DNA from: a virus
DNA: 24,858 nt
IMG/VR virus record: IMGVR_UViG_3300042451_001762
Span: 1-24,858 of that record
Reading direction: 5' to 3' (one strand)
Shown here: piece after piece, positions 6,705-14,705 of the stretch
Position numbering within the stretch: position 1 is the first letter of the stretch
How the letters are laid out: every line of letters starts with the position of its first letter
Translations under genes and position numbers: made by a program
Notes under the pieces: generated by a model
Seen by the model: the letters and a program-made list of their open reading frames with translations, nothing else
The model's database searches: none
What the model was told of the DNA's origin: nothing

Positions 6705-8087
6705 ATGATAATAAGTACAGAATTCAACCAAGATACCTCAGAATTAATGGTATCATACTATGATGCAAACGGCCAAGTTGCATTTATCAAAAAATACATT
6801 CACGATATTGACCAGTTCAATTGGGTTTTAACTCCAAGTCCAACTGAGTATCGTAATTGGGACAATCGTTTTCTAAAAAAGTCCAAGAATAAGTGGCTCA
6901 GTCGTTTTAGACTCGAAGAGCTCATTCAGGAGAGATTTACCCCAGAAGAACTCGCCTTAATCTACTCAAACCAGGGCCCAAAGAAGTATTATCTCGATAT
7001 TGAGATTCAGTTAACGTCAAACGAGTTCCCAGATCCAGCCAAAGCTGCGATGCCTGTGAACTTAATAACATTTGTGAATGAAGAAAACGTCTGCTATGTC
7101 ATGTCGACCATGAAAGACTTAGAATCAGGTGTAGTTTCGCAGCTAGAAACTGAAGTTAACGAATACTTTGTGGCTCACAATCAGACTTTCTCTCTCAAAT
7201 ACCTATTCTTTGATACAGAGGAAGCCTTAATGTCAACCTTCTTTTTGAAAGTCTTACCAAAGATTCCATTTTTTACTGGTTGGAACGTGATAGGCTTTGA
7301 CTGGATCTATCTGGTCAATCGAGCCAAGCGCTTAAAGATTGAAGCAATGGAGAATATGCCAAGTGATAAGCTAATTGGTCAATCCAAGATGCCACTCCAC
7401 ATCGGCCTACTCGACTACATGGAAGTATTTATGAATACTAAGCCATACAAAGTTGTCGAAAACTATAAACTTGACTATATTGCTAACCTCGTTTTAGGCA
7501 CAACGAAACTTCACAGTGAATATGCAACAATGATCGAGGCCCAGCAAGACGTTGAGAACTTCGTCAAGTACAACATCATTGATACAATCCTAATCAAACT
7601 AATTGAAGATAAGTTGGGCTTGTTAGACGTTGCCTTCTCTATTTCTCAACTTGCAAAGGTTGATGTATCTAAAGTATTCTCAGCTGTGTACATTACTGAG
7701 ACGCTGATGTGTCGAGAATTCTTGAGCAGAGGTAAACTAATGGCCAGCGACCGACGAGACATTGAAAATGAGGCAACTTATGACGGAGCCTTCGTTGCAA
7801 CTCCAGTGCCAGGCTATTATAAGTATGTTTCATGCTTTGACTTTGCCTCAATGTACCCGAATTTACAAATTCAATTTAACATTTCACCAGATTCATATTT
7901 GGGTAAATATAATCCGGCTCAGCAGGTGCCAGATGAAACTATTTTCACCAAAAATGATACAATATTCACAAATAAGTTCGACTCAGCCGCTAGAGCTATT
8001 CTAAAGGGTCTGTACAATGAACGATTTGAAACAAAGGCAAAAATTAAGTCGTTAGAAGACGAGCTAGCGCATGAAAAAACTAATTAA
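6705..8087 (+). CDS. 43A: Family B DNA polymerase, N-terminal half only (exonuclease plus start of palm), gp43A-like
   Basis: Replicative DNA polymerase fragment. All three 3'-5' exonuclease motifs are present: Exo I YLDIEIQL (D98, E100), Exo II GWNVIGFD (N194, D199) and Exo III YNIID (Y289, D293). Polymerase motif A follows at 379-386 (DFASMYPN), preceded by the usual YDGAFV element at 359-364. The frame then closes at residue 460, inside what should be the fingers. Motif B (KxxxNSxYG) and motif C (DTDS) are missing and I find them in no frame of this window. T4 gp43 is about 900 residues, so half the enzyme is absent. Split gp43A/gp43B polymerases are known in Aeromonas T4-like phages; the same is likely here, with the other half outside the window. 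The exonuclease half looks intact. The next gene overlaps its end by 17 bases. Confidence 0.9.
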   Translation: MIISTEFNQDTSELMVSYYDANGQVAFIKKYIHDIDQFNWVLTPSPTEYRNWDNRFLKKSKNKWLSRFRLEELIQERFTPEELALIYSNQGPKKYYLDIEIQLTSNEFPDPAKAAMPVNLITFVNEENVCYVMSTMKDLESGVVSQLETEVNEYFVAHNQTFSLKYLFFDTEEALMSTFFLKVLPKIPFFTGWNVIGFDWIYLVNRAKRLKIEAMENMPSDKLIGQSKMPLHIGLLDYMEVFMNTKPYKVVENYKLDYIANLVLGTTKLHSEYATMIEAQQDVENFVKYNIIDTILIKLIEDKLGLLDVAFSISQLAKVDVSKVFSAVYITETLMCREFLSRGKLMASDRRDIENEATYDGAFVATPVPGYYKYVSCFDFASMYPNLQIQFNISPDSYLGKYNPAQQVPDETIFTKNDTIFTNKFDSAARAILKGLYNERFETKAKIKSLEDELAHEKTN

Positions 8088-13100: not shown

Positions 13101-14218
13101 TGACGACCTTAAAAGACATTCGAAAAATACACCTAGTTGGTGACCTACACTTAGGCATCAAAAACAATGCAATAGAATGGCTTGAAATTCAAAAAAGCTT
13201 TCTATTGGAAGACCTTATTGAAAAGGTTGACTTTGACTTTGATGAAGCTCGAGATATTCTAATTTTTGAAGGAGATATTTTTCACTCTAGGGAATCAGTA
13301 AACATTCGAATTCAAAATGAAAGCTTTGCAATCTTTGCACAGCTAGCCAAAAAGTTTAAACGTGGTGTCTATATTATTTTGGGCAATCATGACGTCTACT
13401 ACAAAGATAAGAATACAGTCAATTCAGTTAAGTCACTATCTTACCTATCAGACAACATTCATGTATTTGAGAGATCTGAGATTTTATCAATAAACGGCAA
13501 GCATAACTTTTTAATGCTACCGTGGGTTGACGATTATACTCGACTTGCTGGTATAATTGAAGATAATCGTGATGATGCAGACTATATTATTTGTCATGCT
13601 GACATCAAGGGTTTGACACTAAACAAGTGGGCCAAAGTTGAACACGGTATCGAACTTAGTGCTTTATCTACATTTAAGAAAGTATATTCTGGCCATATTC
13701 ACATTAGGCAAGAAAAAGCAAATTTGCTCTATACTGGTACCCCATATCAAATGGATCGAGGAGATCGTGATAATCAAAAGGGCCATTATGTTTTAGATGT
13801 TACAGGAGATCAAATCGTCGAAGAATTTTTACCGAATGTCAAGTCGCCAGTCTTTTTAAAGCTCAATATCTTTGAGATCTTGGAAATGCCGTTAGCTGAT
13901 ATTGAGAAAATGTTCAGAAACAATTTCATTGATGTCATGATAAGCGTCAGTTTTGCCAGTAAGTTGTCGATTACCAGTTTTTTAGAAAAAATTCAGGACA
14001 CAGGTTATCGAAAGATCGAGTTCTTTACTTATGTTGATGCTAAACCAGAAGAACAGACGACACAAGTTGAATTTGATCTACAAGACAATTTCAACATTAA
14101 TGATATTTTCTCTCATTACCTAACGATTCAAAATTACACAGAACCAGTTAAAGAGGCCTTAACTGAAAAATTCTTGGAGACTCTACAAAAAGTTAGAGAA
14201 CTTGATAAGTATGCATAG
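13100..14218 (+). CDS. 47: Recombination nuclease subunit gp47 (SbcD/Mre11-like)
   Basis: Metallophosphoesterase nuclease that works with gp46 to resect DNA ends for UvsX-dependent recombination. All calcineurin-like motifs are visible: DLH at D15/H17, GDIFH at 58-62, GNHD at 95-98, CHAD at H166 and GHIH at 198-201. The length of 372 residues is close to T4 gp47 (339). It starts at ATG 13100 overlapping the preceding stop by one base, and the next gene begins 8 bases inside its end. Confidence 0.94.
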   Translation: MTTLKDIRKIHLVGDLHLGIKNNAIEWLEIQKSFLLEDLIEKVDFDFDEARDILIFEGDIFHSRESVNIRIQNESFAIFAQLAKKFKRGVYIILGNHDVYYKDKNTVNSVKSLSYLSDNIHVFERSEILSINGKHNFLMLPWVDDYTRLAGIIEDNRDDADYIICHADIKGLTLNKWAKVEHGIELSALSTFKKVYSGHIHIRQEKANLLYTGTPYQMDRGDRDNQKGHYVLDVTGDQIVEEFLPNVKSPVFLKLNIFEILEMPLADIEKMFRNNFIDVMISVSFASKLSITSFLEKIQDTGYRKIEFFTYVDAKPEEQTTQVEFDLQDNFNINDIFSHYLTIQNYTEPVKEALTEKFLETLQKVRELDKYA

Positions 14219-14705
14219 ACCGTTTATTCATAGAGCAATTGAAGTTAGACCAGTCGGTCCAAACCGGTTTGCAGTATTTTCAACTGACAATATTGGTCGC
14301 GGTACTCGAATCGAGGCTTGTGCAATTATCCCAATAACCAAGCAAGCTCACACAGCACTGACTAAAACTAGAACATCGGCAGCTGATAGACTAGTTCAGA
14401 ATCCAGACGGTATTCTGAAAGAGCGCAATATTCTAAATTCAATTGCTGAAATGGAATTGGAAAAGCGCTTTGACGCGGGCCTAGTTTCAACCGAAGACAT
14501 TAAGAAAATCCTATTCGAATCAGGTAACCTAACTCAAGTACTCGATATTGAAACCCACGGCTTTTTATCGGGATATGGCTCATTCTATTCCAAGTCTCAG
14601 TATCCGAATGCCTTGATTGAATATGATGCTGAGTCTAAACTATATAATGTCACAACAGTAAAAGATATTACACCTAACACAGAGATTACCTATTTTACTC
14701 GATGA
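14211..14705 (+). CDS. SET-domain protein (possible lysine methyltransferase)
   Basis: 164 residues from ATG 14211 (an in-frame TTG at 14202 would add three). The order of elements matches a small SET domain: RFAVFSTDNIGRGTRIE at 19-35 resembles the first SET motif (GxGVFAT-DIxxGxxIE); near the end GYGSFYSKSQYPNALIEY corresponds to the xNHSxxPNA motif; and VKDITPNTEITYFTR corresponds to RDIxxGEELTYxY, with the Tyr in the catalytic position. The Asn-His of NHS is replaced, so activity is uncertain. SET enzymes transfer methyl groups from AdoMet to protein lysines. The gene lies inside the gp47-gp46 pair, overlapping gp47 by 8 bases and gp46 by 4 (ATGA), so it is co-expressed with the nuclease. 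The target is unknown. Confidence 0.68.
   Translation: MHRPFIHRAIEVRPVGPNRFAVFSTDNIGRGTRIEACAIIPITKQAHTALTKTRTSAADRLVQNPDGILKERNILNSIAEMELEKRFDAGLVSTEDIKKILFESGNLTQVLDIETHGFLSGYGSFYSKSQYPNALIEYDAESKLYNVTTVKDITPNTEITYFTR

Follow-up and report, generated by a model that had tools for sequence, protein, structure and literature searches.

In the 24,858-base viral fragment that makes up the source record (the window, analysed here over its whole length), a small gene lies between those of gp47 and gp46, the two subunits of a phage Mre11-Rad50-like nuclease. The original prediction saw in its product a SET-domain protein lysine methyltransferase, with the caution that it might be a binding domain only. 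Is this protein an enzyme, or has it kept the SET fold and lost the catalytic residues? And does it belong with the nuclease, is it directed at the host, or is it cargo in a junction where genes happen to insert?

The nested gene and its neighbours

Reading rightward, the window carries a family-B DNA polymerase ORF, UvsX/RecA-like and DnaB-like helicase genes, gp47, the nested SET gene, gp46, thymidylate synthase and dCMP deaminase. The nested gene is a real gene (Table 1) and, as had been claimed, it overlaps both of its neighbours, with 8 nt shared on the gp47 side and 4 nt on the gp46 side. Judged from these overlaps in the sequence, it is plausible that the nested protein is produced together with the gp47-gp46 complex. 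The start of gp46 is without a Shine-Dalgarno sequence in 38 of 39 SET-bearing rows and in all 36 SET-lacking rows. We reject this absence as a sign of translational coupling, because such sequences are nearly absent anyway from the 19 gene starts examined in the window (there is one Shine-Dalgarno-like AAGGA, before 9363). Such scarcity is as in phages whose hosts do not depend on these sequences.

The family-B DNA polymerase ORF (460 aa, window 6705-8087, plus strand) contains the exonuclease domain and the first third of the polymerase domain only, with a Pfam DNA_pol_B match covering 16-145 of 453. It is followed by an unrelated ORF at 8071, so that the polymerase is split or truncated.

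Table 1. Features of the gp47/gp46 junction and parts of the nested protein, in window coordinates
Feature	Position	Strand	Remarks
gp47, Mre11/SbcD-like nuclease subunit, 372 aa	13100..14218	+	PHROG SbcD-like, 5e-55
Nested SET-fold gene, 164 aa, degenerate SET domain	14211..14705	+	ATG at 14211, stop ends at 14705; Pfam, model
Overlap of gp47 end and nested gene start, 8 nt	14211..14218	+	
SET-N half, residues 1-43	14211..14339	+	GxG is R-F-A, both glycines lost
Helical SET-I insert, residues about 44-113	14340..14549	+	SHOCT-like hairpin, below threshold, in many relatives
SET-C half, residues 114-164	14550..14702	+	GYGSFY...PN core, then ITY and chain end
S127-K128-S129, replacing AdoMet-binding N-H-S	14589..14597	+	
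Motif IV, E158-I-T-Y161-F-T163	14682..14699	+	T163 at catalytic-tyrosine position of active SET enzymes
Overlap of nested gene stop and gp46 start, ATGA, 4 nt	14702..14705	+	
gp46, Rad50/SbcC-like ATPase subunit, 556 aa	14702..16372	+	CPHC zinc-hook-like motif; PHROG SbcC-like, 1e-75

A SET fold and its catalytic positions

The nested protein is a SET domain by four routes, namely its Pfam score, the matches of its relatives, a family profile compared with PDB chains, and the predicted fold. The window protein reaches 24.2 bits against the Pfam SET model PF00856, above the cut-off of 22.4; a six-frame search of the window record with this model finds the C-terminal half only, at 16.7 bits, which is below the cut-off. 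SET matches at E up to 0.1 are present in 24 of the 26 aligned members of the main group (A1), the best at 1.5e-8. A profile from 26 family members has S. pombe Set7 as its best PDB chain (8.4e-12), and also matches P. falciparum PFL0690c (PfSET, 1.1e-8) and PBCV-1 vSET (2.2e-7). Comparison with solved SET domains points the same way: the AlphaFold2 model (mean pLDDT 87, pTM 0.73) has a predicted SET fold, for which vSET is the top match in Foldseek (E 2e-7) and Set7 in VIA-align (Z 13.6, rmsd 2.7, 113 aligned), and the structural alignments reach the final residues of the model. A degenerate version of the SET motif order does occur in the window protein, with RFAVF-STDNIGRG close to the start, then GYGSFYSKSQYPNA, and EITYFTR at the C-terminal end; it is backed by the Pfam score, the family profile against PDB and the fold search.

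Set7, PFL0690c and vSET, the nearest solved folds and sequences, are small stand-alone SET methyltransferases that have the SET-N/SET-C core in common with the nested protein. Solved small SET chains have 105-123 residues, whereas the nested protein has 164 and a helical insert, in which E71, R86 and G90 are invariant in A1. The closest viral model is the BFVD entry A0A6J5SSB1, from an uncultured Caudovirales phage; at 164 aa, with a TM of 0.89 and 41% identity, it is of one family with the nested protein and is known by its database name only ('SET domain-containing protein'). Searches of PHROGs and NCBIfam assigned no family to the nested protein. SHOCT (PF09851) matches 16 of 26 members at E up to 0.1 (best E 1.8e-4), and this identity was rejected since the best-scoring member, L012, has 21.6 bits against a curated cut-off of 27.

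A divergent clade (A2), whose gp46 is 58-59% identical to that of the window, has no Pfam SET match in any of nine members. Over its full length, however, its nested protein can be aligned with those of the main group (hhalign E 1.2e-11), and the structure predicted for it (pLDDT 76, pTM 0.58) is still a SET fold.

Have the residues needed for methyl transfer been retained? The family alignment holds 37 distinct nested proteins, 27 of the main clade and 10 of the divergent clade. None has NH at positions 127-128, the AdoMet motif, and none has tyrosine at catalytic position 163. The altered NHS noticed in the window protein is correct, and it is true of the whole family; RR is the commonest replacement, read from the alignment in 12 of the 37. 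The aligned motif is intact in vSET and PFL0690c, and NHD in Set7. Seven of the 37 chains end one residue past T160-Y161. The GxG motif is also degenerate, being R19-F20-A21 in the window. Glycine is never found at 19 in the 27 main-clade proteins and is found at 21 in 18 of them; the 10 divergent-clade proteins have it at 19 and never at 21. All 26 proteins of the A1 alignment share T160, Y161, E35 and the PN core. The invariance of Y161, which extends to all 27 main-clade proteins and is missing in the 10 divergent ones, suggests that part of the active-site geometry may be retained.

The residue register has two sources: sequence alignments without gaps to Set7, to vSET and to one full-length phage SET, and the structural alignments, in which the final model residues meet vSET 105, SET8 337 and MLL3 4887. 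If one counts from the last aligned pair towards the N-terminus, T163 is paired with residue 105 of vSET, where that chain ends, and with MLL3 4886. The catalytic tyrosine of vSET is Tyr105. By this register Y161 is at MLL3 4884 and T163 at MLL3 4886, and both of these positions are named as tyrosines in PMC5094779.

Full-length SET genes of three phage lineages retain NHS and the tyrosine, and one of these lineages also has the nested gene. Phage SET genes can therefore stay intact, and those of the nested family did not. When 20 records were searched with the SET model, four had a second SET gene elsewhere, at 48.2 bits; the four are near-identical 270-kb phages, counted as one lineage, and the gene (L100) has YNHSETPN and ELCSYYG. 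NHS and the tyrosine are likewise present in SET genes of the 735-kb phage LR756501 and of the L115-L118 lineage. These full-length proteins (L100, LR756501, L115) have the same domain as the nested protein, and the A1 profile matches the L100 gene with an hhalign E of 2e-14, the helical stretch appearing as an insertion. They differ in their intact NHS and tyrosine, in being without the long insert, and in lying outside the gp47/gp46 junction. In the 270-kb phages (L100:1462-2950, minus strand) the intact SET gene is two genes downstream of a 222-aa ORF that has metallophosphoesterase-like motifs by eye.

The claim of a lysine methyltransferase finds no support in these comparisons, as GxG is degenerate and both NH and the catalytic tyrosine are missing in 37 of 37 nested proteins, while the full-length phage SETs keep NHS and the tyrosine. 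From its sequence, the nested protein is probably not an enzyme. What stands of the original prediction is the SET homology, the nesting, the conserved gp47-SET-gp46 order (below) and the caution that this might be a binding domain only, which we judge to be right; what is left without support is the methyltransferase activity.

Inactive SET domains of the Set3 subfamily offer a parallel. According to PMC5094779, the XGXG, Y and NH of active enzymes have become NKKI, F and RR in human MLL5, which cannot bind AdoMet and is inactive. C. elegans SET-24 is similar to MLL5 and has lost the NH motif and the active-site tyrosine (PMC12886896). Both are like the nested family in the loss of NH and the active-site tyrosine, and the change of NH to RR in MLL5 is the one seen in 12 of the 37 nested phage proteins. 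They differ in that they belong to eukaryotic chromatin, and MLL5 has a PHD finger, a domain absent from the Pfam result for the window protein. We offer this likeness in working as an analogy.

Distribution and rate of change

A gp46 search of IMG/VR gave 80 loci, and the later set comprised 83 loci and the window. Between gp47 and gp46, 59 loci hold an ORF of 161-169 aa, amounting to 37 distinct proteins; among these loci are several overlapping stretches of a single contig, and also the window, as L083. In 58 of the 59 the ORF shares 8 nt with gp47, and on the gp46 side the two genes overlap by up to 4 nt or stand at most a few bases apart. After two further gp46 scans, and with incomplete rows and rows lacking the neighbour left out, the sample stood at 78 distinct full-length gp46 sequences preceded by gp47. 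The gp47-SET-gp46 order is thus found in other phages: the nested gene is present in 39 of the 78 (gap 478-498 nt), gp47 directly adjoins gp46 in 36 (gap -4 to +3), and three have other arrangements. In the gp46 tree all 39 SET-bearing sequences lie on one side of a single branch (support 81/86, 78% of bootstrap trees), of which a single gain of the nested gene is the simplest reading.

Four scans with the SET gene, which reach close relatives only, returned 22 rows, several of them sharing contigs. All 22 adjoin gp46, gp47 or both: 20 have both neighbours directly adjoining, in one the gp47 alignment stops short, and one is at a contig end. The close relatives are all metagenomic contigs, presumably, to judge by the type of collection, of freshwater phages. 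Among sequenced phages no relative was found of the window protein at E 0.01, nor of the L018 protein at E 10, and one scan of bacterial and archaeal genomes found no relative of the L012 protein. Read by eye, the ORF lists of large phages with a remote gp46 (LR756500, LR745206, LR756502, LR756504, LR756501 and Lak-C1) include no SET-like ORF beside gp46. Judging by their entries, none of the literature found on phage SET proteins, or on SET with gp46/gp47, describes the nested gene.

The dN/dS of the nested gene is 0.02-0.32 in 10 of 11 pairs, the remaining pair being saturated, and the nested protein is therefore kept by purifying selection. Of 115 pairs in which gp46 is at least 80% identical, however, 113 show greater divergence in the nested protein than in gp46. 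The mean ratio of SET to gp46 divergence is 3.4 times, with 2.0 in most clades and 3.8 and 6.7 in two others. The helical insert is the region of lowest conservation overall. In the divergent clade it changes fastest, with 42% identity where the two SET halves have 62-63%, and in the other clades the three parts of the protein are nearer one another in identity.

In the L049-L052 clade gp46 is 98-99.5% identical and the nested SET protein only 85-90%. The L051/L052 pair has gp46 99.5% alike and SET 88%; dS is also higher in SET for this pair (0.19 versus 0.07-0.09), which local recombination could explain.

What the nested protein may do

On balance, we regard the nested protein as probably a catalytically dead SET-fold adaptor or regulator that would be made with the phage Mre11-Rad50 nuclease and bind to it. 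The gene and its fold, the missing residues, the fixed place, the purifying selection and the fast change are observed, whereas we infer the absence of methyl transfer, the binding to gp46/gp47 and the regulation. The ancestor would have been a SET lysine methyltransferase whose AdoMet-binding and catalytic residues were lost, and whose SET core was retained as a scaffold, with the 70-residue helical insert sitting at the substrate-recognition place of active enzymes. Expressed within the gp47-gp46 operon and timed with the nuclease, the protein would most likely bind the nuclease complex, and might tune the nuclease or ATPase, or bridge to another phage or host protein by way of its fast-changing insert. 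The fixed nesting, the retention on a single branch and the lack of detached copies favour a partner of gp46/gp47, and the fast change favours a moving interface, perhaps one that moves with the host. With 36 of 78 gp46 lineages lacking the gene, its product does not count as a core subunit.

Evolution 2-7 times faster than that of gp46 is unusual for an internal subunit, and a host-facing role fits it equally well. The dead SET scaffold might block a host protein, such as a RecBCD-like nuclease, a nucleoid protein or a defence protein, and share expression with gp46/gp47 for timing only. The nested protein does outpace gp46 in 113 of 115 close pairs, by 3.4 times on average and 6.7 times in one clade; gp46 is 99.5% alike in L051/L052 against 88% for SET; and the insert is the least conserved part overall. 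However, host-takeover genes usually change genomic location, and the nested gene is never away from the nuclease genes, which it adjoins in 22 of 22 scan rows. The single gain on the gp46 tree, as the simplest reading, also weighs against a host target, and lost catalysis can relax constraint without any host contact. Our first choice is accordingly an adaptor or regulator of the nuclease built on a dead SET scaffold; a host-facing binder that merely shares the operon, which is possible but rather unlikely, comes second.

It is improbable that the gp47/gp46 junction is simply an insertion hot spot, with the SET-like gene as tolerated cargo that has no role in the nuclease. Unrelated genes do occupy this junction, among them the T4-type 46.1/46.2, an 86-codon ORF in cyanophage S-RIM50 and an Endonuclease_NS gene in L236, and they count against a partner of the nuclease; the purifying selection and the single-branch retention across 39 distinct gp46 sequences argue against cargo. 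The least probable of the readings, and a very doubtful one, is an active unorthodox methyltransferase that would use AdoMet through changed residues and Y161 on the nuclease or a host protein: the fold is kept, the 26 aligned A1 proteins all have Y161, T160, E35 and the PN core, and intact SET genes exist in other phages, but NH and the catalytic tyrosine are each found in 0 of 37, the GxG glycines are degenerate, even Y161 is missing from the divergent clade of 10, and the C-terminal flank that normally follows the tyrosine is absent.

If the dead SET scaffold does serve the nuclease, we would tentatively go further and propose that a SET pseudoenzyme evolved independently in phages as an accessory subunit of Mre11-Rad50, its insert steering the nuclease or shielding it against a host factor. 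This would place a non-catalytic SET protein in DNA repair and phage-host conflict, outside chromatin. Such pseudoenzymes are familiar from the chromatin of eukaryotes; this one would sit in a phage nuclease operon, retained across diverse phages. The phages with and without the nested gene would form a natural contrast for the effect of an extra subunit on the Mre11-Rad50 machine, and the rapid change of the nested protein marks an interface of interest in phage-host conflict.

The T4-type 46.1 and 46.2 and the S-RIM50 ORF are, like the nested gene, small genes at this junction, and their sequence relation to the nested SET protein is undetectable. As reduced SET domains, 46.1 and 46.2 were rejected (hhalign E 0.72 and 0.3, probability under 1%), as was the S-RIM50 ORF on the same lack of a detectable relation. 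The gene in L236 (2427-2999, plus strand), in a phage of the SET-lacking clade, encodes a DNA/RNA non-specific endonuclease (PF01223, 6e-25) with a hydrophobic N-terminus, and it too has an 8-nt overlap.
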